64,000 nt of DNA. Source: Tetmemena sp. SeJ-2015 (taxonomy: Eukaryota; Ciliophora; Spirotrichea; Sporadotrichida; Oxytrichidae). The position numbers and the translations under genes were made by a program. Under the pieces are notes generated by a model. The model was not told the origin of the DNA. It worked only from the letters and a program-made list of their open reading frames with translations, and did no database searches. The stretch lies in NCBI GenBank assembly GCA_027382625.1, contig JAJKFJ010021242.1:27418-91417 (forward strand), written 5' to 3'. Positions 1 to 37,800 of the stretch are shown here, one piece after another. Position 1 is the first letter of the stretch. Every line of letters begins with the position of its first letter.

Positions 1-580
1 AGTTTCTATCTGGATCTTTCAATACTCTCAGACTAGAAACTTGAAGATGATATGCTAATCTTTTGAACAGTTTGAGATTGTAACCTACTACTCTCTTAGA
101 GATTTTTGGATTATTCAGTTTGCATGTATTTTTAATGCAAGTTCTAGTCCGAAAACTATTGCTTATTGTCTGTAGGAGTTTTAGGAGAGAGAATCATTCC
201 CTAGCTTTAGGAAAGATAGTCATCTACGTTGTCAGTATCGATATAGTCAGTCTTGAGAGGGGCTAGCTATTACTAGACTTCTTTCAGTGTTGATTTCCTC
301 GGCTTTTCAGATTCCTCAACTGGTCTCTTGCTGTGCTTGGAGGAATTTTTGGCAGTTTTTGACTTTCTTGAATCACTCCTCTTCGAAGAATTGTCTTCAA
401 AGTGTTCCATCTACCCACCAGCGATGAGCTTATCTGCTCCACTCATAGATTTCTTGACAATCGATCTTTTCTAAACACGGATTACATAATTTGAGAGAGG
501 GGATTCAATAGAAAAGAGATTACCTTGGTTGTAGCAGTGATATCAGTTCTAGTGTTCACTTTCACGCAACAATTCCCCAT
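1..580 (-). CDS. Acylated MGNCC-type hypothetical protein, 5' part
   Basis: Minus-strand ORF starting at the ATG at 580-578 and running off the left edge without a TGA. The N-terminus MGNCCVKV has the Gly2 plus Cys4/Cys5 pattern of an N-myristoylated and palmitoylated protein, so it is probably tethered to a membrane. A 53-nt GT..AG intron occupies 471-523 (GTAATC..TTTAG) and restores the frame. After the intron the protein is polar and low in complexity (Ser, Lys, Gln), with several TAA/TAG codons read as Gln. No domain is recognised. The next gene (GAS2) also begins with an acylation-type N-terminus, but the proteins are otherwise unlike each other. The 3' end is outside the window. Confidence 0.7.
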
Positions 581-774: not shown

Positions 775-1533
775 TCATTGGGAGAAAAGAGTATTCTCAG
801 TCCTCGCCGACTCCTTCATATCAGAGAGATCTTAAGTAGTGGAATCTCTCTATGATAGTTAAGAGGGAATAGATGCGTCTCTCTGTTTATTCTTGAGCAT
901 CTAGTTAAAAACTAGAAGTTTAATGCTCTTACTGACTTAGTTAAGCACTGCCTGCTCTGCTCCATACTTATTCAGAAGATCGATCAGCACTTGATGATAA
1001 CTCTTCTATCCATCTACCATCAGTCTCTTAATTTTTTCCATCTCAACTTCTTTGTGCTTTATCATATAATCTTCAAGCTTTTCAAAGCCTCCACCAACTC
1101 TCACCATGCAGCTGCTGTTCTTAAGAACAATCATTTTCTGCTCTGTGCCAATTAAATACCTTCCATTCGCTAATCTTATCACAGGAATAGAGTCCAAGTC
1201 CAAATGCAAAAGATTTATGGCTCTCCCTATCGCCTCGTCTACCTAATCTCCTTTCACAGACTGATATTGAGATTATTTTCTAGTCAAGGCAGGGATTAAT
1301 GGAGTACCACCTTTAGAGTCTGAGATTCCACCTTAATTTGCGGCAGTTATTCGCTCTATCTCTTAGAATTAGTTCTCCTAGTCGTTCTCATCTTGATAGT
1401 CTTGTGGGTCGAAGTCATAATCAAGAAGCAATCTGTTTTCTCTGTTTGCTCTTGCTTCTCTCTTTTGCTTTGTGATTTCGTCACCAATGATTGCAGTCTC
1501 AGTCCCTTAAGCTGCACAGCAAATTGCTCCCAT
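775..1533 (-). CDS. GAS2-domain protein with MGAICC N-terminus
   Basis: Uninterrupted ORF of 252 codons ending in TGA at 777-775. It starts MGAICCAAQG, a likely myristoyl/palmitoyl signal, followed by an acidic, Gln-rich linker. Residues about 108-170 match the GAS2-related (GAR) microtubule-binding domain: IPVIRLANGRYLIG, then NSSCMVRVGGGFEKLEDYMIKH, the family signature being M-V-R-V-G-G-G-W/F. In animals this domain binds microtubules, so a cortical microtubule or membrane-microtubule linker is a reasonable inference in a ciliate with a complex cortex. Several TAA/TAG codons are read as Gln. Domain call is strong; the function of the N-terminal half is unknown. Confidence 0.85.
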
Positions 1534-1643
1534 TTATAATGATTTAAGATATAAAAGTGATTTCACAAACTCCTAACTTCAAGTTTTGACTCTCGCAGGC
1601 TAAATATAGAGGTGCAATTTATATCTTATTTAAATTCCAAATC

Positions 1644-4600
1644 ATGGCTTAAGTTAAACAGCCGACGACACTTCCCCAAGTAAATTCCAAATCAAAATAT
1701 TTAAGATACTCATAAACTTCTAGGGCTAAAATTCTAGCAATGGAGAAATCTCCTTTACAATCCTAGAGCAAGTGATAGTGTTTGCAATATCTCCACTCAA
1801 CCTATTTATAGCAGTCATAGTTCTCTACTAGTAGATCTATTTTTTATTTGATCAAAAACAGAAGAGTTACAATGTATAAATGCTTCGGATTCTAATTTAG
1901 CCTATAGGAAAAATTATAGATACTTCTTCCACTTGATCTTGATATTCTTACTGATAAGCACTTTAACTGAGGTGCTGGATGTAGCAATCATGAGATCAAA
2001 TATCGAGTAAGGTTCTATCTCTATATCACAACATACATATTTTCAAAGATATTTTCTCTATGGTGATCTCTAAATTATGTATAGAAAATTCTACCAGTAC
2101 AAGTTCCTTGACTAAAAAGAAGAATCAGGTATGATACAAGAGGACGAGCTTTGTCAAGCAACGGGGGCTATCAATATAATTTCAGAGATTATGGCCTTCT
2201 CCTATTTAGTTTGGTTTTCTTATATTGTGAAACGCATGGTTTCCAGTCCTACAAGCAATTTCCACAGCTTATAGAGAATCACTCACATAGTTACTATACT
2301 GTCCGCTATCTTATTCACTATCGCAATTGGTGTGATTTTCGGATTCGGAATCTCAGTAAGCATTAGGTATTTAATAGGTTTATTAGTCCACTCTCACGTG
2401 CGGCATCTCCCTTCGAAAATACTCAGACTATGCTGACATCATCAGATGTTGGCCTATATTCTTGTTACCCATTTGCATTTACCATTTCTTCTTCCTGCAA
2501 AAGGAAGTTCCCTCACTTATTTAAATTAAAATTCAAAATACTTATTAGATCTAGCGTAAGATTTAGATAGCATGTATATCTTGTTTGTTTGTAGGTTAAG
2601 TACTTCATCTTCCAGTACTCAGTTTATGTTATTTTCTTTGCTGCTTATGTGCTAACTCGAACTGCTCTGATAATAGTTTTTATCGTATACCCTGATGACA
2701 CCTATGATAATTTGTCCAAGAGCACAGGCTATATTGATCTGAGAGCTGTAAGTTAAAAAGGTATGATATCAAACCATTTTTTAGACAGTAGTGTTGTTGA
2801 AGTAACTCTAAGTTAGCTGTCTGATAATAATGACAGCGCTCTCAACAGATTAGATTAAGAAACTTCGTAAGTGCTTCCGAAGAACCAGAACTAGAAACCA
2901 AGATGTAAGCTTCTACTAACTTATCTCTCTTAATGTCTAACTAATTTCAAGATTTAAAAGGATCTACTCAAAAATGATCAAGGGGAGGATAGTGGCTTCG
3001 AAAGCGAAGAATTCTCAGACTTCTCCAATATATTATATTTAAACAGTGATGGAAAGATGTCAGAGAGAAAGTAAACAAGGACTAGTTCAAAGAAGATCAA
3101 CCATAAAATCACGGATAGGGACTTAAAGCCAACTATAGCCCAATTGCGCTGCAGAAGCAATCAACTTTAGTCCTAAAGACGAGTTTTCATCTCATCAACT
3201 ACATTTTGATGGGAATGTGCCAAGTATTCAAAAATATACATGAATAGTCTCAATTAAAAGAAGAGGATTAGCTAGAGAACTTAATGTTGAGAGTAAAGCA
3301 AGCCAAGAATGAAATTTATTTTTTAAATCACAACTCATAAGATAGACACTTAGCAGTTCATGAAAAAGTTTTCAAACTTATGCATCTACGATATCAGTTC
3401 AAATGCATCCTAAATGGAAATCATTGAGTATGCTCCTGAGCTTTTCAAGGCTCTGCGCCAAAAACACGGTATCTCTGAGGACCTTCTTTTCAAATCATTC
3501 GCTCCCATTTACAACATCTAAGCTATTCATAATTTCTTCACAGGTAGTGGGAAATCAGACAGCTTCTTTTTCTTTTCTGATAACAAGACATTTGTGTTAA
3601 AGACATTAAAAGATAGTGAGAAGAATTTACTTCTCGAAAAAGGAGTGCTTGAAAGTTATTTCGATCATATGATGAGTAATGAGGGCTCTTTATTGTCTAG
3701 ATTTTTTGGAGTGTATACAATCAGAGTGAAGAATATGCAAGATATAACTTGCTTCATCATGGATAACTTACTAGGATAGGACTTCATCTATATTTAAAGA
3801 ATTTATGATCTTAAAGGCAGCAAAAAAGGAAGGATAGTCAACTTATCAGAAGAAGAGTAAAACACATAGAGTGGTCTCAAAGTGCTCAAAGACTTAAACT
3901 TACTTCAAATTGGAGAGAAAATAGATTGCCAAAAAGCTCTTAAGGAAAAGCTTTTTGAAGCCATAGAAAAAGATATGGCCTTCCTGAGAAGAAACAAACT
4001 TATGGATTATAGTCTACTGCTAGTAAAGATTAAAAACCAAAAAGAGAATCAGAATCCACTCAAAAGAATGCCTGCACTTATCTATGTCAAGCAAAAGAAT
4101 GGATAAAATTAGTTGCAAATGAAGTAGATAGACGATACTAGGATTCTCAAGAAAGCTACCATGATCCAAAAGAAGTCAGTGACGCCTTCAAACATTGAAT
4201 CTCATTCTGTAGTCAGCTTGAGAAAGACTCAGAACGAAATGACTTATCAGGCACCATTTTTGTAAAAAGGTTATCAAAGCTAGAATGCAGTCAGCCAGTC
4301 TATTAAAATAGAGGATGAGAGTGAAGAGCAAAAGGAATCTTAAAGGACAAAAGAAATAAGTGACGATCAGTATAACGATGATAACTTTTTACTGTATTCT
4401 TCACCAATTCGAGAACCTATCAGGCAGGAGAGTAATGGCGCCTATTTAGATTTAGAGACTGGCATCCAGCCTGGTCAAGCTTTTCATACTAAGATAAAGA
4501 GTGAGATGAAGGTGAAGTTTGGACCACAGACAAACAATACTTCCATGAATAACTTAAACTAAATGAATAGCAACTTGGCGACTGAAAACAAAAGCAACCC

Positions 4601-4931
4601 CTCTTTAAATAAAATCAAGAGCATGCAGAGCTTTATAAACAATATTGAAAACAATAACTCGTAGTTCATCATGGAGAGCTTGCAATCTTACCTCTTCTAG
4701 ACTTGCTTTAATGATAGGAATAATTAAGAAGGGAATATTTTGGATTCTAAAGATGGAAACTTTAGATATAAGTTAGGAATAATTGACTTCTTGACTGAGT
4801 ATAACGCGGCAAAGAAGATTGAAAGGGCATTTAATGATGTTGTTTACTGGAAAGAGAAGCAAGAAGTTTCTTGCCAGGACCCTGACACATACTCTCAAAG
4901 ATTCTTGGAGTTTATGAGAGCTAACCTTTGA
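1644..4931 (+). CDS. GPCR-phosphatidylinositol phosphate kinase fusion (GPCR-PIPK)
   Basis: The N-terminal part encodes about seven membrane segments; the C-terminal part is a phosphatidylinositol-4-phosphate kinase domain. Kinase motifs seen: MEIIEYAPELFKALR, SGKSDSFFFFSDNKTFVLKT, DLKGS (about 3810), MDYSLLL (about 4003) and GIIDFLTEYNAAKK near the end. Introns that keep the frame: 1680-1723, 1866-1900, about 2356-2386, about 2507-2594, about 2748-2784, about 2893-2939, one of 68 nt near 3070-3140 and one near 3293-3341; a few may be IESs instead. An unusually long polar insert lies between MDYSLL and the last kinase motif. Seven-helix/PIPK fusions are known in Dictyostelium (RpkA), oomycetes and ciliates, and would couple an external signal directly to phosphoinositide synthesis at the membrane. 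Ends at TGA 4929-4931. Confidence 0.85.
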
Positions 4932-6317: not shown

Positions 6318-8211
6318 TCAAACTCTATTGGTTGCAGTTGCATTTATCTTGTGGTGCCTGACTTTGTTATAGCTTTAATTATCATTCTCAACAAGCTTCC
6401 GAGAGTCCTCATTTGCAGGTTCATCATCCTCATTCTCATCATCTACTGGCTCTTCATTTATGCTCTGCCTCCCAGGTACTTGCTCTAGCGACTTAATTGC
6501 GTTCTTTAGAGTACTAATTTGCTATAGTTTGCTTTCCAAGGCTTTGCCGCTTTTCAAATAACCTCTCAGTATATCGTCAATGCTCTCACTACCTGTATAC
6601 ATATTTCTATTCTGATTGCCTGAGTAAAATTAAATAAAATGAGTTAAGATGAACACTAGACAAAGCGTCCTCGAGCTCATCAGTGCAACCATATTTGAAC
6701 TTTTGTTCCTAGTCTCCAGAAGAAACATCCTGCAGTCCTAAGAAATTATCTGGTCTGCCATCCCCTCTCACGAACTCTATTTTCCCTTCCTCTTCTTCAA
6801 GTTTCAAAGACTCTCCCCTTCTAGATTTTTCATTCTCTGGTCCTGCATTCCTCGGATTTTAGGAGCTTATCTTCTATTTTCTGCTCCCATTTAAGGCATC
6901 TTAATCGTTTGCGTTATTATTAACAGTATCAATAACCTCCTCATTTTGATTTTTCTCATCATATTTCACAAACCGAGGAGAGTTAAAGCATATTCTCAAA
7001 GCTAAAGCAGTTACAAAGATAACTATTAGGAAAAAGCCAAGAATTGCATAGCCAGCATAGTGGATAGGCAGGTAAAATTCTATCAGGTTATCTGACTATT
7101 TAGAGTAGATGTCTATATAAGAACTGTCATCTGCTCTTTTCAAAATTTTGTTGAACACTATATTCCTTTAGTTTAGCAGTTGCAAATTCTAAACTACTTG
7201 CTAATAAGTTGATAATTGAAAGAAGACCAGTCCTTTAGTCTCTTACTCGGAGAAAATCTAGATCGAATAATCATTTAAATCAATATTTTGGTGATCATAG
7301 CTAAAAGAGAATGCTTTTGTAAGGACTATATCATAATCGGTGTTGTCTAAGCAACTAGCTAAATCAGCTTTTATTTAAACCTGTTCTTGTCTAATAAAGT
7401 AATTTCTCGATAGTAATCCCTCCACTCTGGAATCAAGGCAGATCTTAGTATGGTCTTTCTAACTTTCATAGCCAAGTGAGCTGAGGTTGCTAGATTTTGA
7501 ATTGAGAGTAGCAACTTTCAAAACGTCAAAAGATACTAGCATTATCAGATAAACAAAGCAGAAAAAAGTAGTCGCTTACCAAAATAAACCCAAAATTGGA
7601 AGTTTATCAGTCATTTTAAAATCTGTGAGTGATAGAAAAACTGAAGAAAATCTTTTTAAGAAAGCTGAGTATGACTTCGATTGTTCTTAATTTTTCTCTT
7701 AAATAAGAGTATTCTTAAAGTATTTCGCGGGAATAAAAAGTGAGATCATAGTTAGAAGTGCGATGATTGGTAAGTAGATACCGAATAACCATTGGATTGA
7801 ATTAATAATGATGACACTTTGAATTTACTTGTAAATTTTGGGTCTTATTCCTATCACCGGCTCAGATAAAGCCTGAAGGTAGAATATTCTAGAGCCGTCA
7901 TTCGTAGTTAGTGTTTGATTGTCTACTATTGCAGTGCATTAGTTTTGCTATAGGCATTTTTGGACGCCCTTGTAATCTTAGAATTTGAGAAGGTTGATTT
8001 GCGTAAAGGGAACAGCAGTGACATTCAAAGATTGTTTTGGCATTTGAATATAATCATTAATGTATTGTTAGATGAATGCGTTAGTGAAGTTGTTTTCTGG
8101 GATATCTATTATCCCCAAAGTAAAGTTGGTTTAAGCTCTAGCTATCCAGTAGAAAGTGAAAGAGTATAAAGAGAGAAAAGTTTTAAAAGTTAAGTTAATA
8201 ATGCTTTTCAT
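6318..8211 (-). CDS. Ionotropic-receptor-like ligand-gated channel
   Basis: Minus-strand gene from ATG 8211 to TGA 6320-6318 with one 37-nt intron at 6620-6656; otherwise open, with TAA/TAG as Gln. Order: signal-peptide-like start, about 130-residue extracellular part, a membrane helix (SVIIINSIQWLFGIYLPIIA), a short hydrophobic loop, a second helix (LFWQATTFFCFVYLIMLV), about 150 extracellular residues with two conserved Cys, a third helix (YAGYAILGFFLIVIFVTALA), and a long acidic, probably cytosolic tail. This S1-M1-P-M3-S2-M4 order is that of glutamate-receptor-type channels lacking the amino-terminal domain. The primary sequence is too divergent to be sure, and no SYTANL motif is visible. 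The head-to-head neighbour is the P5A ATPase. Confidence 0.55.
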
Positions 8212-8272
8212 ATTTTGATTGCGTTTATAAATTCTTTTATTCAAAAAATATCATCTTCATCATAATATCACT

Positions 8273-10472
8273 TTCCTACTATCGCCTATGGCTATTATCA
8301 CATTTATGGAGAATAGCTTTACGACTAGGAGCACATCGCAGCTTCAGTAGCTTTAATCGGAGCAAATTATATAAATGTTCTCTTGTTTCTGCTTAACTTT
8401 TGGTCTGTGAATGCGAATGTGATTATTTAATACTCTTCCCTAAAGAATACTCAAATAGCAAATTGCACTCATGTAAAAGTTAAACTCGTAAACAATAAAT
8501 CGCATACTATCAAGAGAAGCATAGTCCCAATCATTCATAACTCTATTCAAACCGCAGCAGAAATTTATATTCGTTTTTGAAGGCACAGTAGTCATGCAAA
8601 GCAAAATATAGATTAAATGAGATAGAAGCCATCTGAAATCAGAGTTCATAGATTCGGAAAGTGGAAAATTTTAAATGATGAGCTTTATCCTGGTGATATT
8701 GTTCTCATGAAAAAGAATAAGGAGGATAAGAAATCTCTTGTCCCATGCGATCTATTGGTCTTATCCGGCTCCGCAGTAGTGAACGAATCAATTCTTACAG
8801 GAGAGAGCTAGCCTCTAGTTAAAGAAAGCATTGCTTAGCTTGACGAAGGTGAGGAAACTCTGGACATCAAAGTCTTATAAAGTTCATATTTTGAATGGAG
8901 GCACTGAAATTCTCTAGTATATCCCTAACGAAAACCTGAATGAGCTTAGTTATTGTCTTTTTTCTTCATAATATCTTTTGATTCTTTTATGCTTCGCTCT
9001 TGTTGCAAGTAATTACGTTTTAACTGAAGGCTTGAAAGATCCTACCAGAAGCTGTAAATTTATTGAGATGTGTGCTAATTATTACAAATGTTGTGCCTCC
9101 TGAACTTCCCATGCAACTCTCAATGGCTGTAAATTATTCGATATTAGTTTTCAAGAAAGCTATATTCTGCACAGAGCCTTTTAGAATTCCATTTGCAGGC
9201 AAGATTGACATTTGCTGTTTCGACAAAACAGGAACCCTCACCTAAAATGACTTGATCATAGCTATGAAATCTGAGTGATGCTCATCTGTAAGATAGAAAT
9301 GCTCTGATATGTAATTAATGCGGATAATGTACTTGTTGGTGATCCTATTGAGAAATAGATTTAAGTAGAATTTAGAGCCAGAGATTGTAAGATAATTCTT
9401 GAAAGAAGTTCCTCAGAATTATGACCAAGGATTCTTAAAGTATGTTAAGAACGGTGCAAGAGTTTTAGCTCTGGCATATAAAAATCTTCCCAAACAATCT
9501 TCAGATTAATACTTGCATGTCAAAATATTAATAAATACAATGCCTAGTATTTTGCGGATTTCTAATTTCTGACTGTCCTCTGAAGCCTTATAATTATGTG
9601 AATATATTTAATTTATTAAGTTTGAAAAGGATTCTATCTAGTGGACTAAAAATTTGAAGCATCAACAACTAAAGTCGAAGAAGTGGCGAAGCTCTCATAG
9701 GACTACATGCTTTGCATAAATGGAGATATTCTAGAGCAGATTTCAACCTTGCCTTTAGCAGTTTTTAGCAATCTAAACAAAGAAGGTTATATTACAATGA
9801 TAGGAAAAAATATTGAGATCAAATGTAGGACTGGCTATCATAATAAAACTCTCAAAAGAAGATAAGAAAAAGAGGAAAACTATGTCAATGTTTTTGAAAC
9901 CCTAAGATCTTGAAGGACTTACTCAAGAGTAAAAAATGGAAAAGCAAAAGAAGCATAAATCAAATCCAAGATAGTGGTCATATTTTAAGATTATAAATAG
10001 TTTATGGAGGAATATATGAAGACTATGCAAAACTAAATATATATGACTCTGGAATGCCAGAATTAGGAGATGCTTGTATTGCTGCACCATTCACCTTTAA
10101 ATTCTCATCTTTACTAAGTGCTAAAAAGCTCACAATTTTTATTTTTTGAAGAACTTTTTAGATGTACAAGATTCTATCATTGAACTCTCTAGTATCTGCA
10201 AATTTCGAATAAGAGTTAAAATGGGAGACTCTTAAGCTACTTGCATGGGTATAGGTATAAGTATTCTCTATCATGAAAATGAAGAGACTAGAGAAGGAGA
10301 GACCTCCCTCATCAATATTCCATTGGTATACATTTAGAGCCTCATATTGACAGAGTTGGGGACTAATCTTTGGTTCCCGATGGAGATTTCTAACCAAATG
10401 TCAAAAACAGCGTGCTTTTATGGATTTTCAACAAAAAAAAGTGAAGAGAGTATCTTGAGCTTGTTCCTTTCC
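8273..10472 (+). other. Even-numbered MDS block of the scrambled P5A ATPase
   Basis: Twenty segments in ascending order, same orientation: MDS2 8273-8562, 4 8568-8601, 6 8616-8872, 8 8879-8950, 10 8972-9052, 12 9061-9259, 14 9323-9358, 16 9378-9525, 18 9547-9588, 20 9617-9649, 22 9658-9753, 24 9765-9801, 26 9815-9839, 28 9851-10038 (with an internal IES), 30 10044-10132, 32 10152-10199, 34 10213-10269, 36 10280-10326, 38 10337-10416, 40 10445-10472. Coordinates include the pointer at each end. Spacers are only about 5-60 bp and must be eliminated. Internal ORFs in this block are fragments, not genes. Confidence 0.92.
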
Positions 10473-12878
10473 ATATAATTAGGGAGCATTATAAGATATG
10501 CGATTACGAAAATAATTGATAAATAATGGCAGAATCATTTCAGAGTGGCTAGTACAAAACACTTTCCTTCAAGCTTCTCAAAAAGAAACCAAATTTCTTA
10601 AGGCTTGACATACTTGGCGTTCCTACTATCGGCAATTATTATAGATCAGAGCAATTACCTTGATATGTCTCTTGTTTAAAATTAGCAGAAGAAAAGGTCA
10701 GTAAGACCTATTAAATAGAAGTGGCCAAGAAGAAATTGCTATATAGCAACGATAAAAAAGCTTTCTAGTACATTCCATTCCCTATAAAGGAAAGCATATC
10801 TTTCTATCAAAATGCAGAGGGCATAGTTCAATAAGAAGAAGAAAGGAAAGCTGCTTTAGTATGGGGATAAAACAAGATCAGTATTCCTATTCCTTAGTTC
10901 TTTGACGTGTACTAAGAACATCTAGTTGCTCCTTTCTTTGTTTTCCAATTGTTTTGCAGTGCACTATGGTTGCTAGATGAGTATTGGTACTACAGTCTGT
11001 TTACACTAATGATGCTATTCGTTTTTGATTTCTTACTAGCATGCAAAGATTGTAGAATTTGAAAAGGCTGAGAGGAATGAGATAGGGCTTATTAAAGTGG
11101 CAGAAGATTATGAGTGATGAGCTCAATTTTTCTTCAAAGGCATTCACAAAGTTCAAGTTTGTAAATTAAGCTTAGTCATTTAGAGAAACCACCCGTAGAA
11201 GGTATTGTATGTTATGTTCTCAAAAACGGTTTCGAAACAAAGCAAGGAAAACTCATGAGGACAATTTTGTTTTCCACTGATAGAGTTACAGTTGAAAGTA
11301 AGGAGACTTACTTTTATCTTTTGAGAAATTAAATGACTGATAAACAGAAGCAGACAAAAGCTGCTATTGAGATGAAGGGAATTTAAGATTTTATTCGATC
11401 ATTTAGCTGATCAAGAAATAAATAAGCTTGATCATTAAAGGTGTAACTGGATTTAACTTGAGTAATGTTGATGAAAAGTTGATAACTCTGAGTTAGCATT
11501 AGTTTACAGCTCTGTTAGTCCTCGGAGGGTGCCACACTCTAGCTATGGCAGATATTATTATTGAGAAATAGGCTTTCGAGGGAATTCAGTGGAAGCATGA
11601 TGGAAAGAAAACTTCATATCCTACAAGCGGCAATGGCCCTAAAATATCACTAATCAAAAGATACCTTTTCGAATCTTCTCTCAAAAGAATGTCAGTAATT
11701 TCTCTTATTGAAGATCCCAAGTCTATCTAATCAACTGAGTACAAGGTTTTAACTAAGGGAGCTCCAGAGATATAAAAAAATAAAGATATGCTCCTAATCA
11801 AAAGAGAAGAAGCTGAAAAAGACCTTGTATTTTTGAATAATATGCTAAGCCTGATACAAAGAGAGTAATAGCAGAACTCAAGAGTTCAAGTCATGAAGTC
11901 AAAATGATTACTGGAGATAATTAACTTACTGCTGCTTTTATTGGTAAAGAACTTGGATTTGGGAATACCTCTGAGTCTCTCTTTGCCTCTAAGTTTGAAT
12001 ATATTTTATTTTGACTAACATTGATGACAAGCTAGTAGCATCAAGTTTTAAAATGTATCATACTTGCCAATAATTGCTTAGATAATCAGACATACACAAA
12101 TCTTCTCAAGAACATCACCTAATCAAAAAGACTTCATAGTTAGCAATATAAAAACTCTCTGTTTATCAATGATGTGCGGAGATGGAACAAATGATGTTGG
12201 ATCATTGAAGAGATCAACAAATTCAATAAGCTATCGTAAACAATAGAGACCCCTCAAAAGAATGTAGATAAAACTAAATGGGAGGACCTGACTCTGGAAA
12301 ATAATAATTCAAGCTCATCTAGCAAGGAAGATCTACTCTTTCTACAACTTTTTAATGCAATCATCTGCCTATACTATGAGTGCTCTGTACTTAGACGGAG
12401 TTAATGAAATATTCTCTTCCTGATGATTTCTTTCTCTCAGCCACTGAAGAGAATCGATAATTATTCCATTGGAGTCTAGTGATTTCTGTTCTACTTTAAT
12501 TTGCAGTTCACCTTTCAGTTCTCGTTTATTTGGTGAATCTATGTGAGCCTGATATATAATATATCACTGACCTGTGCTCTTCCTTTATCAATGGTGGCTG
12601 CAATGCACTGTAATCTTTGTTAATTATAGTGGAAGACCTTTCATGCAAGACTTACAAGAGAACAAAAAGCTTTTCAGATACATCATAATTATGTTTTTAG
12701 TTGCACTAGCAGGTATTCTTGACTGGTCGGATGTAGTTAGAGAGTATCTTGAATTAATTATCCTTTCCCTAATGAAGAATTTCAAATGACTGTCATTGCT
12801 CTGTTGTGTGCCGATTTTGGAATTTGCTATTTCATTGAGAGGAATATAAAAGCAGCATATCTCAGAACTTTCAAATGA
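8273..12878 (+). CDS. ATP13A1: P5A-type P-type ATPase (ATP13A1/Spf1 family), scrambled germline gene
   Basis: ER transmembrane-helix dislocase family. The gene cannot be read linearly: its 41 MDSs are split between an even block (8273-10472) and an odd block (10526-12878), joined by 40 shared pointers. Assembled length is 3,498 nt (1,165 aa plus TGA at 12876-12878), close to animal and yeast P5A proteins of about 1,200 aa. Motifs in assembled order: [20 protein letters not shown] (MDS3), ILTGES actuator motif (MDS6), [15 protein letters not shown], the P5A transmembrane signature, and [16 protein letters not shown] with the phosphorylated Asp (MDS12), LVGDPIEK (MDS14), GARVLALAY (MDS16), ITGDN (MDS19), [15 protein letters not shown] spanning the MDS24/25 junction, [10 protein letters not shown] (MDS30), and the C-terminal [12 protein letters not shown] (MDS39). 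Many motifs are completed only across pointers, which confirms the joins. Confidence 0.95.
9955..9992. other. Conventional 38-bp IES inside MDS28
   Basis: The direct repeat ATAAAT occurs at 9955-9960 and 9993-9998. Removing one copy plus the intervening sequence (38 nt) restores the reading frame between KMEKQKKHK and QFMEEYMKT in the cytosolic loop of the P5A ATPase. Without the removal the frame is broken. This is the only non-scrambled IES needed in the gene. Confidence 0.75.
10526..12878 (+). other. Odd-numbered MDS block of the scrambled P5A ATPase
   Basis: Twenty-one segments in ascending order: MDS1 10526-10631 (contains the ATG), 3 10684-11028, 5 11040-11085, 7 11134-11155, 9 11169-11324, 11 11345-11374, 13 11427-11554, 15 11559-11771, 17 11798-11833, 19 11847-11999, 21 12013-12044, 23 12063-12147, 25 12167-12217, 27 12230-12262, 29 12270-12299, 31 12311-12354, 33 12363-12404, 35 12410-12452, 37 12462-12550, 39 12574-12752, 41 12761-12878 (contains TGA). 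The block begins 53 bp after the even block ends. Example pointers: MDS1/2 TTCCTACTATCG, MDS14/15 TATTGAGAAATAG, MDS39/40 AGAGAGTATCTTGA. Confidence 0.92.
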
Positions 12879-31070: not shown

Positions 31071-34050
31071 TAAAAATTTTAAAAGGGAAAAAAAGGATTA
31101 AAAATTTAATTTACCCCCCTTAAAAACCTTCAAAGATAAAGAAATTTAGACCTGAGAAAATTTTGGGGCTACACCCCAAAAACCCTACCTTTATCAAAAG
31201 CCCCTTTCAGAAAAATTTAAACCTGAGTTTTAAAAACCCCAAAAAATAAACTGAAACTCAATCTCCCCTTTTAAAAACCCCCAAATTTAAAACCCAAAGG
31301 GTGAGGGGATTAAATTTAAAGGGTATGAAAATGTCCCAGTTTTAATTTTACACTAAAAAAATATAAATAGAGCCCGTTTGCCCCTGATCCCTCTATCCAA
31401 GCCAGATCTAAAAATGGGCGAGCTCCACTCTGAGGGAAAACCATTGACCCCCAATCTTATCTCATATGTTCTCTCTGCTTTCTCGCTCTTCGCCATCGCC
31501 AATTGCTGTTTAGCTCTCAATTTCTATCGTCAGGTCCCGCATTGACAAAACCGACGGGGCTCCTCCCGATGTGAAGTAGTTGATGCATCCCCAACGAATA
31601 GCATTTTTGGTTTGTGAATGACGATACCAAATTTTTTGCCGAGCCCCCCCTTAAAATTTTAAAACTTAAAATTTAAATAAATTTTAAATTAAAACGGGTT
31701 GGAAATGAAAGCAGAGAAAAGATATATAAGAATGCAAATATGGTTTCCATCTTAAAAAAGCTCGACCCACCCCAAAACCCTTGGTATTTCCGAATAGAGA
31801 AGTTTCAGGGCCAAAGGAACCCCCTTAAAATTGGTTTTTTTTTCTTTTCCAACTCATAAACCCCTCCACCCATGAGACCGCCGTTTTCCCCCAAGACATA
31901 AAGGCACTCCCCACTAGCAAGGACAGGGCCCCAGTCCCCCCCCTCAGTTTATCTCCCTCCTAAAAAGACAGAAAATCCGCGACCCCTCCTCACAAGTCCC
32001 CGACCCCCATTTCCGCTAAACAGGGCCATGGGGAAATCTCGCCAGACTTCCCAAAAATGCCCTCCCCCCCCTAAACAACCCCGGGCCGCTTCAATCTCAG
32101 TGCTGTATGAAGGACTCCTCCCCAAGACATTCCTCCACCCTTCCCGAGCACCTCCGGCTCGCCAAGCGCGTGATTGGGTAACACCATGGCGCGGCACTTC
32201 CCCTAGGCCCTCCTTCTAACGGGGTTTGGGTTAGTCCGGCTACCTTTTCTCCCCCATTTTCCCCGGACTAGCTCCAGTGACCCGGGTATAGGCGACCCCC
32301 TGCCAATCACAGCTTTAAGAATCCTTGCCTTTGAGATGAGCCGGAATTTTTTTTCCAGCGAAATCTTGCTGAAGCAAAACCCCTTTGCCATCCAGTATAG
32401 GGGGGAAAATTTCCTGGGGGATTGATATTCAAGCTATCCCCCTTTGAAAAGGAAATAAAAAAACCCTTGATTAAATAAACCCCCCCCCGGGCTAAACCAA
32501 AATTTTGGAAAGGCTTTGCTCTAGCCGCCATGAGTTGACGCAACTCAACCAGCTCAACAAAGAGACCTATGCGGGGGGATCCCAAGCTTGGGGCTTTTCG
32601 AATCTCCCCCTCCTTCAAGGGGGCTACATGCCAAAAAAAATTAAAATGGTGGGGAAAATCCCCTTTGGGCCTTTCCCCCCAACTCGACCACCCCCGTCCT
32701 CTTCGGGGCGCGATAAGTTCAATTAATTTTCCCAAGGGTTTTGGGGAATAACGGGGCAAATTACTGGCTCACGCCGAAGGCCACCTATTTTCCCGAGCTT
32801 CGGGGAAATTAAAAGCTTTCTGAACTAAAGGCTCCCGGGCCAATCGTGCTCCTTGTTCCCACCCCTTAAAAAAAAATGGCCCCCAGGTTTTAGGGAAATT
32901 TAAAAAGCCCCAGCGGGAGGGGAAGGGGGGGTAGCCCCAAAATTTTCCTTGTAAACCCCAAAGGCCATCCCCTAGGGGGGGGAGCCCCCGGGTCCCCAAA
33001 AACCCCCCAAAAGGGCTTCCCCCTTTCCCCAAACACCCCCAAAATTTCCCCAAAAACCTTGGGCAGTTGAGAGCCTTTATAAAGGCCCCACCCCCCCCTT
33101 TCTCGCAAAAAATAAACTCCTAATCAAGCGGGGCCCGTTAAAAAGCCTAAAACCTTGTAAAGACGTTTCATTTCACCCCCCGCCCGCTCCAGCCCATGGG
33201 AAAACCCTCGCCATCGACAAAGAAAAAACCCGTCCATGTGGGAAGCAAGGGGCAGGATGGGTGGGGGGCATACAGCCCCCCCTCCTTGGCCCAGTCATAA
33301 AAACCCCCCGCGGGTCCCCCCCGGGTTTTTTTGGGGAAAAGGGGTTTTAGGGCTTTTGGGAAACTTAGCCCTTGGGCGGAAAAATCAAAGTCCAAATAAA
33401 ACCCACCCACAAAAGCCGAAAACCCCAATGACAAGGGGGTTAAAAATCCCCACCTCCCTTGTTTCGGGGGGATGTAGGGCGTCGCCCCGCTGGTTTGAGT
33501 AATACCCTTAAAGTTGGTCAAGAGGGGAATTTTATTTCCAGTTTCCCACCATCAAGTAAAAGGGGAGCCCCCGAAATAAAATTAATAATTAACGGATATT
33601 TGGGTTTAATTAAGGAAAAATTAAAACGTTCACCCATAAAAATCAATCTACTTTTGGGAAATCTGCGATTACTGGGGTTTTTCCCAATGTCGATCCCCGC
33701 CACCTTCTAAAAAGATCAAAAAACCAGCTGTTTGTAATTCATGAGGTCGCCCTATTTGCCCTCTCACCCAGTGCAAACCCAAATTTTTCACCCCAAATAA
33801 TTGTCATGGGAGGAAATTTTGGGGCTTTTCTTTCTCCCCCGAAAAAACGTTTAAAACCCTTTAACCCCCTCCGTGGCTTGACTAACTTTCCCTTGGCTAA
33901 ATTGCTTCCCATCAGGTATGCTAAATTTTCCCCCTTTCAAACCCTAAAAATTTAAAATTTTTAAACTTTGTTTTTAATTTTAATTGACAATTTTTGGTGG
34001 CAAATTCAGGCTTCATTTTAACGATCATATTGTTCGATTGGTCAAAACGC
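31070..34050. other. Homopolymer-inflated, non-coding germline-type DNA
   Basis: Dense runs of C, G, A and T of 4-10 bases (for example near 31645, 32040, 32480, 33080) and a sharp GC shift compared with both sides. ORFs here are short, on both strands, and their translations are low-complexity or alike in several frames, so none is supported. CCCCAAAA-like strings occur (for example 31175-31186) but without the regular G4T4/C4A4 array of a telomere. The sequence may be a decayed transposon flank, or a low-coverage long-read segment with homopolymer errors. Confidence 0.5.
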
Positions 34051-34084
34051 TCCCTTCGCTTTTGCTTCGGGGCCTATATCATCT

Positions 34085-34432
34085 AGTTTATGCCTGCGGT
34101 GTCTAACGAGAGGAGCACGTCAACTATCCATTTCTTGTCAAGATGCACCCAAATCGCACTAATCTGGGAAGTAGCAAAAAAGTGATGGCTTTCCCTCTGC
34201 ATACTCCAGGAAGTCATCAGCAGTCAATCCTTCAATTTGCGGAACAGCCGCAACTATGACATCGGTTCTCCTTAAGAACTGAAAAGTTCATCATGCAAGC
34301 TATTTACCTCCTTCTTGCCGTCGAGGATGCTTCTGAAGAAGTATATGTTCGTGCAATTCATCTTCGGGAGATATGCTCCACAATCCTGAGTGAGGAAATC
34401 GTAAAGCTCCTTTTTGCTCCCGACTTTCTCTC
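34085..34432 (-). pseudogene. Fragment of a TBE-type transposon accessory ORF
   Basis: The minus strand encodes, with frame breaks, KKELYDFLTQDCGAYLPKMN and SILDGKKEV, then VIVAAVPQIEGLTADDFLEY and GKPSLFCYFPDQCDLGA. This resembles, from memory, the small accessory ORF of telomere-bearing (TBE) transposons of oxytrichid germlines (pattern YDxLxxxxGxYLPP, GKK, V..PQIEGL, YLPD). It sits about 1 kb from the transposase fragment and on the opposite strand, compatible with the TBE layout. Two frame changes show that it is broken or badly sequenced. Confidence 0.45.
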
Positions 34433-35219
34433 TAAAACTTTAATTTATTCCCTTAAAATTTTTTCCCCCGTGGGTTAAACTTTTAAAATTAATTTAAAAA
34501 AAAGAATCCCAAGATTTAAATAGGGGAATAAAAAAGGTAAAAAAAATTTCAATAAAAATCCAAATTTTAACTTATTTTATTAAATTTAAAATTACTCTAT
34601 AAAAAATTAAAAATTTTTAAAACGAATATTTTCCCGGAAACCCGGGAAAATAAATGGAAAAACCCCAGGAGATACTCGCAACCCGATAGCCCTAAATCTC
34701 AAAAACACTTTTTGGGCCCTGACCCGGGAAAATTGAAAAAACCCCGCTCAAGACCTAAATTTAAGATCATAAGACCCAGAGGATGAATTTGGGCCCAAGA
34801 AGACGGGGTTGGCAGCTGGAGCTTCTTTTGAAACCCCAAATCATTGCGAACATCTAAACCCCCTCCGAAGAATTCGGGCCAAAAAACCCCCTAACCGGCC
34901 TCATTGCTAAGGAAAGAAAGGCTAAAACCTTAACAACTGTGGGGAAAAGAAAATTACCCAGGGTCATCTTAGACCCCAAAGAAAAATTTCCAAAGGGACC
35001 CTTTTTTAACTCTGGCTTCATAAGTGATATTTTGGCCCTCCGCGAAGTTCTTAGAGACCCCTCTAAAAAAAGCAAATGAAAATCCCCCAAGAAAACTCAA
35101 TCAAAAAAAACTGGGAAAGAAAACCCCAGAGAAAAGAATCGAGAGCCCAGCTTAAAAGTGGGGTTTCGTTTCATTACTGGGAAAGGGAGCTCGGGGGTAA
35201 ATACTTATACGAATTGAAA

Positions 35220-35940
35220 ATATGGGGCAAACTGTGAACTCGGAGAACGGAGAAACGATTAGTCAGCCAATGAGGGAAGAAGGCCTATGATAAACACAGA
35301 CTCTGGTAGAGTGGCCAGTATCCCCAACTACTTTGTCAGAGCGAAGTCTTGCTCAAAGAAAATTATCATGGGGCGTCTCAATCTATCCAGGAAAAAACTA
35401 AAAGCAATTTTAGAAAGGGGATGGGGCCGAAGGTCTGGCGGGCCCCTTGATGGGGCAAAAGGTTTTCCCAATCGGGCCCAAAATTTTCTTACAAAAGGGG
35501 GATTTGTCCAGAAAAAGATAAAGGAAAGCACTCGATTCCCCTTTAAAAAAAAAGCTTCCCGATAAGGTCCGAGAAACTCTGGGTCTTTCCCCATTTCCCC
35601 TCTCTGTTCTGAAAGAGTGGGAAAGGAGCGTTTTTAACGAGCTATAAAAAAAATATATTCGATCGCTCAGAGGACTAATTGTGAGGAGGCTGTCATTGGG
35701 CGCCACCTCGCAGCAGTTGAGTTCATAAATATCCTCAGCGAAGGAAAATAAATTATCAACATCGATGAAAGCAGCATCAATGTGATAAATGATTCGAAGA
35801 GATTGGTCTTACAAAGGGGGAAAAGTACTACAGCGACAAATCTCAGAGGCTTTACTAAGTCAATATTATCGCAGGTGTATCGAGCGATGGGCGAGTCTTC
35901 TTCTCGCTCCTCGAGGGTTCCCAACAAAAAGCAAAAAAGT
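35220..35940 (+). pseudogene. TBE/Tc1-mariner-type transposase fragments
   Basis: The core at about 35641-35840 reads AIKKIYSIAQRTNCEEAVIG, then LAAVEFINILSEGKQ and IINIDESSINVIND, with TAA as Gln. This fits the central part of the DDE transposase of TBE/Tec elements, in which the INxDE motif carries the second catalytic acidic residue. After a frame change, VNIIAGVSSDGRVFFSLLEG (about 35843-35920) matches the next conserved block. An upstream piece (35230-35390; TLVEWPVSPTTLSERSLAQRK) may be the N-terminal region. The ORF is broken by several frameshifts, many in homopolymer runs, so it is inactive or mis-sequenced. These elements act in germline DNA of spirotrichs. Confidence 0.6.
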
Positions 35941-37800
35941 ATACGCCCCTTTTTTTCCCTTAAATTGTCTCTGCTCTTAGAAAGGCCCGAAGGGGTTGGG
36001 GGGACAAAGCCCTTCTTCAAGCTCGACAAAAGCAACATATCACAGAATTTAGTTTCTCACGCGGGAACCTTTAGGCTTTTACCAAACAAGCAAAACTATA
36101 CTTGGGGGCCCTTTCCCTTTTAAAAAGGCTCCGGAAAAAAAGTTTTTTGCCCCCATCAAAGAGGAAAAATCGGAACCCCCACGCCCGGCAAACCCCCAAA
36201 GCAAAGGATGCCCATTCCCCACCCACTCTAAAGAAACACTTTAAATTACTTTGGTTTTGGGTTGCTGACTCTTTCGATGAAGCCCTCTGCAAAAGGCCCC
36301 TAAAGTATTTAACTTCTAAACAAAATGAGTATAGAAATGGGCTTTGCTCTGCATAAACAGCAAAACCCTCCCTTTAAAACAATTTCCCATTCAAAAATTT
36401 TTCATCCAGGGCCCATCTAGGGCCCAAAACCTTAAAAAATGAAAAAAACCCCCCCTGCCCCCAAAATAACATCCCCGTCTACGATTCGCCCGCTTTTCAT
36501 AAATGGAGAATAAGAAAAATTTTTTATCAGAATGAACTAAAGAATTCCCCAAATTTGGCTTTAAAATTGGGGGAAATTTGCTCATGTTGTTTCAGCATTT
36601 TTTACTCCCAATATTCAACTAACAAAAAAAAACCCCAAAACCAAAATCCCAAAAAACTTTCAGTCCCCCTATAAGATCAAAGGGAAACAGAAAAAACCCA
36701 AAATTTTGGGATGCCCACACTGGGGGCTAAAGCTTTGAGAAGTCAAGCTCCCGGAAAAGTCCCCACGGAAATCGAGCCCAATCTGTCCCTCGGGGACATT
36801 AGGTTTGGGTCCCCGAGAACACAAAATAAGCACTTTTTTGCTTTTCATGCGAGAATAAAATTCACTAAAAATACAGAAAAGCAAGGACACCCAAAAAAAG
36901 TGCAAAAAGGGGGGGCACAGCTGAGAAAACCCCCGGAGAACCCAAACCCGCTTAAATTAGAAAATATGGGGGAAAAACAGAAATTCGAAAGATTAGAGAA
37001 GGCAAAGTGGGGAAAGGCCCTTTGGACTCAAGGCAGCTTTAAAAAGCCCTTCATATCCTACGTGTCAGCCAAGCCTAAAAGCCCCAAACCCCCCCCTTCG
37101 CTCCTACAAATTTTTAGCGCGCCCCTTGGCTCGTTCTCCTTTGAGATTGAGAGCAGATGTGGAAAAAAAGATCATTTCTGGGAGAACTTGATGAAGATAG
37201 TGCATCGGACTATTAAATGCTATTCCAAGTCATAGTGATAGACCCAGCTTTAAAAATAATTTTTCCCCAAAATATCTCTCTAAAGCTGCGATAAGGGGAA
37301 TTCCAAAAATCGAGCTTTCTTACAATGGGAACCCCATATTTTAAATGGGGGCTCCCCCCAAATAAAAGAGGAATTTTGGCAAGCCCCAAATTTTTGGGGG
37401 AAGTGGGTACAACTTGAGAAAAAACATTGAAATGGGCAAGCTCCAAAATCTCAGGGGAATCTAATAAATTCGAAGCAACCCTAAAATTTAAAGGAGCATT
37501 GCTTATGGCTCCAAGGGCTCAATTGATAAATAGGTTCTTGAAAAAACCGCCTTCAGAAATCACTCACAAAATGAGGGGCCATTCTAGAAGCCCGAGGGGG
37601 CTCTGGGAAAAGGGTTGAAAAAGTAAATGTCGGGGTTTAAATGAGGTTGGAAATATTCGCCCGCCCCTTTATGCATTTAGAAAATTTTCAGTGCATGTGG
37701 GAAAAAGAAATTGGGAAAAAGGGTTTAAATATGAAATTGAATGAAATAGCAAAACAAGAGAGGGAATTTTCTTAAAAATAATTAGTAAAATAAAATTTGA
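35941..37800. other. Continuation of the decayed transposon-like region
   Basis: Homopolymer-rich DNA like 31-34 kb. Short ORFs on both strands have no supported product; some plus-strand pieces (for example LLWFWVADSFDEALCKRPLK near 36240-36300) could be 3' transposase remnants. Terminal inverted repeats were not found by eye. From about 37720 the base composition returns to the usual AT-rich type. Confidence 0.35.

Follow-up and report, generated by a model that had tools for sequence, protein, structure and literature searches.

How a single gene is encoded when its even and odd segments lie in two separate blocks is the question raised by positions 8273–12878 (+ strand) of the window, the 64,000-nt stretch of DNA analysed here. 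This locus contained a single P5A (ATP13A1/Spf1-type) ATPase gene arranged in that way. It was read, with a probability of about 95%, as a gene of 47 alternating units woven together via 46 shared pointers of 4–14 bp, with the A+T-rich stretches discarded.

Reconstruction of the Gene

The best reconstruction had 47 alternating units and 46 shared pointers, with a median pointer length of 8 bp (Table 1). Since an ordinary IES split unit 34, the total was 48 MDSs. The assembled gene was 3,513 nt long, corresponding to 1,170 codons and TGA; it contained 36 in-frame TAA/TAG codons, and its single TGA was terminal. An earlier note on this DNA had given the same coordinates, strand and alternating order, with the evens 5′ of the odds, and these were borne out, as were its pointer range and three named pointers. 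Its counts of 41 MDSs and 40 pointers were too low, and its length of 3,498 nt (1,165 codons) was corrected. The even and odd segments formed separate clusters, as in an odd-even permutation. All units of the final list were on one strand, and inversion was unnecessary, as the earlier note had stated.

The segments were separated by 46 short, A+T-rich stretches of 4–52 bp (median 11.5 bp). The G+C content of the skipped stretches (n = 46, one being the conventional IES) was 19.1%, versus 36.7% in the assembled gene; random pieces of the P5A locus had 33.8 ± 1.7%. Base composition played no part in the profile alignment described below. Retaining the conventional IES shifted the frame and lost 321 bits. 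The spacer between the blocks probably represents the 5′ leader of the predicted nanochromosome, together with the region where a telomere would be added.

Table 1. Features of the P5A ATPase locus (positions in the window).
Feature	Position	Strand	Pointer	Remarks
Even block	8273..10472	+		23 even units (24 MDSs), ascending; 2,200 bp, 1,873 MDS
Spacer between blocks	10473..10525	+		53 bp, A+T-rich (from sequence)
Odd block	10526..12878	+		24 odd units, ATG to TGA; 2,353 bp, 2,024 MDS
Conventional non-scrambled IES	9961..9992	+	ATAAAT (9955–9960 and 9993–9998)	32 bp, within even unit 34
Unit 1	10526..10631	+	1, TTCCTACTATCG	
Unit 2	8273..8562	+	2, AGCAGAA	exact junction less certain
Unit 3	10684..11028	+	3, TATTCGTTTTTGA	
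Unit 4	8568..8601	+	4, CATGCAAAG	
Unit 5	11040..11085	+	5, AATGAGATAG	
Unit 6	8616..8664	+	6, AAAGTGG	
Unit 7	11094..11123	+	7, TGATGAGCT	
Unit 8	8676..8872	+	8, TCAAAG	TGES motif
Unit 9	11134..11155	+	9, AAAGTTCA	22 nt with pointers
Unit 10	8879..8950	+	10, AGCTTAGT	
Unit 11	11169..11324	+	11, TATCTTTTGA	
Unit 12	8972..9052	+	12, CAGAAGC	
Unit 13	11345..11374	+	13, TATTGAGATG	
Unit 14	9061..9142	+	14, TTATTCGAT	PPELP motif
Unit 15	11391..11418	+	15, TCAAGAAA	
Unit 16	9151..9259	+	16, CTTGATCAT	DKTGTLT phosphorylation motif
Unit 17	11427..11493	+	17, TCTGAGT	
Unit 18	9270..9306	+	18, GCTCTG	neutral on general profile; closest relative supports
Unit 19	11509..11554	+	19, GATA	alternative ATTA, +12 nt
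Unit 20	9323..9358	+	20, TATTGAGAAATAG	
Unit 21	11559..11771	+	21, CCAGAGAT	
Unit 22	9378..9525	+	22, TCAAAA	
Unit 23	11798..11833	+	23, GTATTTT	
Unit 24	9547..9588	+	24, AAGCCT	CPLKPDT completed across pointer
Unit 25	11847..11999	+	25, TAAGTTTGAA	alternative TGAATATATTT, +24 nt
Unit 26	9617..9649	+	26, GACTAA	
Unit 27	12013..12044	+	27, AGCATCAA	11-residue motif across pointer
Unit 28	9658..9753	+	28, CTTGCC	
Unit 29	12063..12147	+	29, TTAGCAAT	
Unit 30	9765..9801	+	30, CAATGAT	13-residue motif across pointer
Unit 31	12167..12217	+	31, GAGATCAA	GDGTND motif
Unit 32	9815..9839	+	32, GCTATC	25 nt with pointers
Unit 33	12230..12262	+	33, CTCAAAAGAA	
Unit 34, first MDS	9851..9960	+	conventional, ATAAAT	
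Unit 34, second MDS	9993..10038	+	34, AAAACTAAAT	
Unit 35	12270..12299	+	35, TGACTCTGGAA	
Unit 36	10044..10132	+	36, AAGCTCA	
Unit 37	12311..12354	+	37, AACTTTTTA	
Unit 38	10152..10199	+	38, ATCTGC	
Unit 39	12363..12404	+	39, GAGTTAA	
Unit 40	10213..10269	+	40, TATTCTCT	
Unit 41	12410..12452	+	41, TGAAGAGA	
Unit 42	10280..10326	+	42, TATTCCATTGG	
Unit 43	12462..12550	+	43, GAGCCT	
Unit 44	10337..10416	+	44, GTGCT	
Unit 45	12574..12752	+	45, AGAGAGTATCTTGA	
Unit 46	10445..10472	+	46, TCCTTTCC	gives LVPF of ELVPFP
Unit 47	12761..12878	+		terminates at TGA

Identity of the Assembled Protein

The assembled protein shared 508 identities over 834 positions with the nearest relative found (P0002), or 61%; the other listed relatives were 37–46% identical. 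The best matches among solved structures were ER transmembrane-helix translocase chains (5.5e-246). The 6xmp chain, named as a P5A-type ATPase, matched at 6.6e-233, and the best P5B chain at only 4.6e-88. P5A was thus its nearest class, ahead of P5B and other P-type ATPases, in agreement with the identity first proposed. TIGR01657 scored 941.7 bits (cut-off 618.25) over residues 46–1144; its description reads ATP13A2 family, and we take it to cover P5 pumps in general. The motifs TGES, DKTGTLT, GDGTND and PPELP were found, the last presumably a P5A mark. As the earlier note had claimed, some motifs became complete only when units were joined: CPLKPDT at units 24/25, and motifs of 11 and 13 residues at units 27/28 and 30/31, respectively. 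Judged from its sequence, the product would be an ER transmembrane-helix translocase.

Tests of the Segment Order

A P5A profile was aligned with jumps allowed anywhere and on either strand; pointers, order and strand were not required. This pointer-free alignment gave 25 segments, none on the minus strand, and the pieces of the two blocks were interleaved and ascending. By start position, every step ascended in the even block (13/13) and in the odd block (10/10). Seventeen of the 24 junctions crossed between blocks and seven lay within one block; some successive pieces overlapped because short units were passed over. A run of at least 7 nt was shared within 9 nt at 9 of the 17 between-block junctions, compared with 2.15% of 2,000 random site pairs.

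Results varied with the jump cost. At a cost of 11, the odd pieces of the pointer-free run ascended in 12 of 13 steps, and at low cost the alignments broke into noise (242 segments in one run, 70 in another). In both runs of one earlier test (costs 15 and 18), a piece from the N-terminal end fell on the minus strand. Overlapping even-block sequence was read again twice at cost 15 and once at cost 18, and at cost 15 one short piece of the odd block broke the order. Another profile run differed from the final list in the unit 2/3 region and in the unit 34 linker; both were decided by visual comparison with P0002 and P0003.

The free-order profile score was 805 nats with pointer jumps versus 118 for the linear reading. 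The controls scored 14.0–18.8 in all six dinucleotide shuffles and 14.7–18.4 in all three other stretches of the window, which upheld the claim that the order is beyond chance. All 46 scrambled junctions had repeats of 4–14 bp, for which the reconstruction itself selects. The words common to both blocks numbered 172, 55 and 21 for 8, 9 and 10 nt, versus means of 195, 66 and 22 in 40 control pairs. There were nine 11-nt words (control 7.4) and six 12-nt words (control 2.5, maximum 7). These counts were not clearly above control, so the repeats alone are no proof. Order, frame, homology and base composition, taken together, do prove scrambling. The odd-even germline scrambling claimed earlier was supported by independent tests, namely the pointer-free alignment, the profile scores, the unit skips and the G+C contrast.

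The exact number of units is less firm. Some units may be spurious, or some junctions may lie at other repeats, with a true count a few off 47; this refinement is possible but rather unlikely. Codon-only and profile reconstructions differed, and the earlier note had counted 41. Replacing the pointers of junctions 19 and 25 by their alternatives kept the frame and cost just 7.7 and 5.9 bits, and the reconstruction runs disagreed at junction 2. Skipping unit 18 raised the general profile score by 0.9 bits, but lost 12 bits against P0002. Junctions 25, 19 and 2 are uncertain, as is unit 18 when judged by the general profile. Against a different count, 44 of the 45 internal units cost profile score when left out (43 of the 44 skipped singly, and the merged unit 34), and 32 of the 44 single skips shifted the frame or brought in a TGA. 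The refined reconstruction also raised the scores of the relatives over the early one (P0002, 1,100 versus 751 bits).

Copy Number and Host DNA

The assembly comprised 146 Mb in 5,213 contigs and was fragmented. DNA probes, one per block, each matched only their own site in it. P0002 had 32 matches in the assembly, of which 10 in C2321 were 43–78% identical and the remaining 22 were 29–40% identical. No second P5A locus was found in the 146 Mb, which may be incomplete.

These results bear on two other explanations. Two decayed tandem P5A pseudogene copies, with surviving fragments complementary by accident and a working gene elsewhere, would also leave each block in gene order, as observed. 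Such copies are very improbable, given a joined frame of 1,170 codons free of internal TGA, the presence of all seven probed motifs, shared repeats at junctions far above chance, and the failure to find another P5A locus in the possibly incomplete assembly. Even less probable is an artefact in which reads from two alleles, or from germline together with somatic DNA, were wrongly assembled into an interleaved order. The fragmentation of the assembly would allow it, and the locus was judged from the contig sequence. However, 46 switches at short repeats with A+T-rich stretches are, in our judgement, unlike misassembly, and both probes matched once only. A scrambled gene of 47 units is the preferred reading.

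Other P-type ATPase loci (C3019, C3560, C1057 and C1872) had two or three pieces each, in linear order. On this thin evidence, the P5A gene appears to be an exception in its family.

The host DNA is probably germline DNA from a hypotrich ciliate. Hypotrichs read TAA and TAG as Gln and have C4A4 telomeric repeats and many Tc1/mariner-like transposases. The in-frame TAA/TAG codons, the telomeric repeats (90 matches to (CCCCAAAA)2, nine of which lie at a contig's first base) and the DDE_3 matches (150 scored among 921 candidates) were consistent with such a host.

Proposed Mechanism and Origin

Consecutive units would be joined during macronuclear development into a single reading frame, by recombination at the pointers that would leave one pointer copy. 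The product would be a nanochromosome capped by telomeres, with its start in the spacer or close to it. The blocks, their order, the repeats, the open frame read in the ciliate code and the full-length P5A homology are direct results, from which the joined molecule is inferred.

Of the 46 pointers, 17 were non-unique in the locus, with 109 extra copies altogether when both strands were counted. Among 27-nt windows of the assembled gene, 24% were not contiguous in the locus, and units 9 and 32 were shorter than 27 nt including both pointers. Passages of PMC7599177 describe 27-nt small RNAs copied from the old macronucleus in Oxytricha, and long template RNAs of the old macronucleus as guides. 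At those places a 27-nt small RNA could therefore find no full-length germline match, but a long template could. Joining here may likewise be guided by long template RNAs, as those passages describe for Oxytricha. The locus thus supplies numbers on how segment order is specified.

Local duplication followed by complementary decay of both copies is the likely origin, a route that Feng et al. 2022 suggest for loci of this type (PMC9797194). The lengths of MDSs and of the IESs that they replace were weakly correlated (Spearman 0.36, p 0.016, 45 pairs). True MDS/IES pairs had a small score advantage over permuted ones (p 0.02, 38 pairs), for which the length correlation can account; compared with shuffled IESs they showed no excess similarity (mean z 0.02). 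The unit cores totalled 2,969 nt versus 624 nt for the replaced stretches. It can be proposed tentatively, at somewhat less than even odds, that the locus is a complete germline zipper. A tandem whole-gene duplication would have undergone strict complementary decay over the full coding length, leaving no redundant segments. The lost pieces would have shrunk to about one fifth, and the gene would persist only as a 46-switch weave for which pointers alone are insufficient.

Comparison with Known Scrambled Genes

The assembled protein aligned with Spf1/ATP13A1 (6xmp, 9jbm) over most of its length and shared the catalytic motifs; the difference lay in the germline structure of the present gene. 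A description of a scrambled P5A gene was not seen among the papers listed by the literature searches, in which the single paper mentioning P5A deals with the evolution of these pumps, and the word "ATPase" was absent from the main text of PMC9797194. The earlier note had overstated the rarity of the pattern, as passages of PMC9797194 and PMC5940158 report abundant odd-even patterns in Oxytricha, Tetmemena and Euplotes woodruffi. Odd-even scrambling being well documented there for hypotrichs, the P5A locus is a further example of known scrambling. The loci in those passages likewise have separate even and odd MDS clusters and short pointers; P5A is unnamed in them, and here the evens lie 5′ of the odds in one unnested 46-pointer word. 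In the terms used in PMC5940158, we read M2M4...M46 M1M3...M47 as a single plain "repeat word", 1..46 1..46. According to a passage of PMC9797194, the most scrambled genes have 195 (Oxytricha) and 204 (Tetmemena) scrambled junctions, and the 46-pointer P5A gene is therefore no record.

The P5A locus is a long, clean, single-contig, one-strand odd-even case. Because a conserved gene is scrambled from end to end, protein homology allows most of its junctions to be assessed. The scrambled gene for DNA polymerase alpha includes an inversion. According to PMC7599177, this gene (in O. nova, O. trifallax and S. lemnae) has more than 40 MDSs and is heavily scrambled, as is the P5A gene; its two loci are more than 3 kb apart, whereas 53 bp separate the two P5A blocks, which share a strand. 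The stichotrich genes for actin I and TEBP alpha, as presented in passages of PMC2394655, resemble the P5A gene in their 3–19 bp pointers, short IESs and conventional IESs mixed with scrambled junctions. Actin I has 10 MDSs with inverted pieces, whereas the P5A gene has 47 units, all in one orientation.

Structure of the Reconstructed P5A ATPase Gene

The P5A ATPase gene was reconstructed from 47 units (numbered gene segments), which alternated strictly between an odd and an even block in the final junction list. When 8273–12878 was read straight along either block, only fragments of a P-type ATPase were obtained. Successive units were joined at 46 scrambled pointers of 4–14 bp (median 8). The woven sequence was 3,513 nt long, consisting of 1,170 sense codons and TGA; 18 TAA and 18 TAG codons in frame were read as glutamine. 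Unit 34 contained a conventional IES, so the 47 units corresponded to 48 MDSs. An intron in place of this IES did not keep the frame on inspection by eye. The earlier note was right about the layout and coordinates, the pointers it named and the motifs split across junctions, whereas its 41 segments and 3,498 nt were both too low.

Features of the scrambled locus and its surroundings (window positions)
Feature	Position	Strand	Description
Even block	8273–10472		23 units
Odd block	10526–12878		24 units
Conventional IES	9961–9992		32 bp, within even unit 34; pointer ATAAAT
Junction 25 candidate pointers	11990–12006 and 9599–9626		TAAGTTTGAA and TGAATATATTT, order swapped between blocks, both in frame
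Open frame	778–1578	-	GAS2 domain
Phosphatidylinositol-4-phosphate 5-kinase-like gene	3291–4928	+	one linear frame (ciliate code), a few kb from scrambled locus
Open frame	6589–8250	-	554 codons; 5' side about 22 bp from even block
G+C-rich region	32001–36000, especially 32600–33400		G+C up to 49% vs 28–39% in most of window
Near matches to CCCCAAAACCCC	31174–37093		7 vs 0.1 expected in window
Dispersed G+C-rich repeat family	32600–33400		42 other matches across assembly, 67–78% identical

Protein Identity

The assembled protein was 46% identical to the relative P0001 and shared 508 of 834 residues with P0002, the nearest relative found. The top solved structures were chains named ER transmembrane-helix translocase (5.5e-246); 6xmp, named P5A-type ATPase, gave 6.6e-233, and the best P5B structure gave 4.6e-88. 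At E up to 1e-200, the final protein retrieved 1,547 proteins. Among the best 120 of these, many of them nameless, no hypotrich name was found. The refined assembly scored 1,100 bits against P0002 and 988 bits against P0003, a further relative, compared with 751 and 715 bits for the early assembly.

Reconstruction of the Segment Order

The locus was woven by codon usage, relatives were searched with the early woven product, and a profile built from 120 relatives listed in that search, which were P5A ATPases, was aligned to the DNA with jumps allowed. Codon usage alone gave 135 segments at a low jump cost and 45 and 19 segments at higher costs. It missed stretches that homology later supported, and profile alignment took its place. 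Free-order profile alignment at a low jump cost gave 242 segments, mostly noise; with banding, the runs produced 48 and 70. The noise arising at low jump costs in both codon-usage and profile runs counts against the reconstruction. Free-order alignment on both strands gave 40 segments at cost 15 and 32 at cost 18, mostly in the woven order. Each of these two runs placed one N-terminal piece on the minus strand; overlapping re-reads within the even block occurred twice at cost 15 and once at cost 18, and one piece was out of order at cost 15. P0002 and P0003 served as guides for setting the final junctions by eye, after which the repeats were checked for exactness and the list for frame and order.

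Tests against Chance

Three tests were performed that were independent of the final junction list or based on features outside it. In the first, profile alignment allowed jumps anywhere on either strand and did not require repeats. All 25 segments that it gave lay on the plus strand. Judged by start position, every step was ascending, both among the even-block pieces (13 of 13) and among the odd-block pieces (10 of 10). Seventeen of the 24 junctions lay between blocks; at the 7 within one block, short units were skipped over and some pieces overlapped. A shared run of at least 7 nt within 9 nt was found at 9 of the 17 between-block junctions, compared with 2.15% of 2,000 random pairs. A cheaper jump gave 29 segments; ascent held for 12 of 13 steps among the odd pieces, and a shared run of at least 7 nt was present at 11 of the 20 junctions between blocks.

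In the second test, the profile score was 805 nats with pointer jumps and 118 nats for the linear reading. Controls for the pointer-using alignment scored 14–19 nats (all six shuffles and all three other window stretches). In the third test, the 46 skipped stretches (4–52 bp, median 11.5), of which 45 lay between units and one was the conventional IES, had a G+C content of 19.1%, compared with 36.7% in the assembled gene and 33.8 ± 1.7% in random pieces of the same locus. The profile alignment made no use of base composition. Shared-word counts between the blocks were not clearly above the control, and whole-block repeats did not separate the locus from background.

Support for Single Units and Junctions

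The profile score fell in 43 of 44 cases when a single unit was skipped by straight read-through, and also for merged unit 34; 32 of the 44 skips introduced a frame shift or TGA. The profile was neutral towards unit 18 (+0.9 bits if skipped), and P0002 favoured it, with 12 bits lost without it. P0002 begins at residue 342 of the assembled protein, and its comparison excludes units 2, 6 and 7. The placement of junction 2 differed from run to run. The limits at junctions 19 and 25 are tentative, since alternative pointers were in frame at a small cost (7.7 and 5.9 bits, respectively). The two-pointer arrangement at junction 25 is possibly alternative processing or a pointer shift under way.

Probable Joining of the Units

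What the locus itself shows of the mechanism is its woven order, its repeats and its open frame. As passages of PMC7599177 on Oxytricha suggest, recombination would take place at the pointers in the developing macronucleus, and the old macronucleus would supply the long template RNAs that direct joining. In actin I and TEBP alpha, removal of conventional IESs is reported to come first (passage of PMC2394655). Within the locus, 29 of 46 pointers had exactly two copies, on this strand only. The other 17 had a total of 109 extra copies there, on either strand, which argues that pointers alone cannot suffice. Of 3,487 windows of 27 nt in the assembled gene, 2,654 (76%) were contiguous in the locus and the rest spanned junctions; units 9 and 32 were shorter than 27 nt even with both pointers.

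Origin of the Locus

Odd-even loci have been proposed to arise from local duplication and decay, and MDS and IES lengths are weakly positively correlated in Oxytricha and Tetmemena (passages of Feng et al. 2022, PMC9797194). At this locus, the correlation was 0.36 over 45 pairs (p 0.016). For 38 pairs, the true MDS/IES combinations scored slightly higher than permuted ones (p 0.02), a difference that lengths can account for, and MDS/IES similarity showed no excess over shuffled IESs (mean z 0.02). The unit cores totalled 2,969 nt, of which 38 nt in unit 34 belong to the conventional IES plus a single copy of its pointer, compared with 624 nt for the stretches replaced. These totals are consistent with an old locus, short of proof.

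Genome Context

The window is part of contig C2321 in an assembly of 146,216,379 bp and 5,213 contigs. P0002 had 32 matches in the assembly: 10 in C2321 at 43–78% identity and 22 elsewhere at 29–40%. The P-type loci on contigs C3019, C3560, C1057 and C1872, in two or three pieces each, matched in linear order. One DNA probe per block matched itself alone in the assembly; therefore, no near-identical macronuclear copy of the probed stretches was found. (CCCCAAAA)n repeats occurred in the genome, and nine matches began at base 1 of a contig. The CCCCAAAA arrays were both internal (G000:C2828:3809-4156) and at contig ends (contig starts, e.g., C298, C586 and C672). The contig-end arrays possibly represent telomeres of the germline or else stray chromosomes of the macronucleus. 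Many DDE_3 transposases were also present, and together with the CCCCAAAA repeats they fit a hypotrich germline. Of 20 open frames in the window scanned with Pfam, 2 had a match; the frame at 6589–8250 had none.

Comparison with Known Scrambled Genes

Among the papers listed in the literature search, supplements aside, none was seen to describe a P5A gene in scrambled form. According to passages of PMC5940158, the first odd-even gene dates to 1992, and 96% of the scrambled chromosomes of O. trifallax can be accounted for by combinations of odd-even patterns. Passages of PMC9797194 already describe genes that have about 200 scrambled junctions. The P5A locus is a further case, long, pure and well resolved, of known odd-even scrambling.
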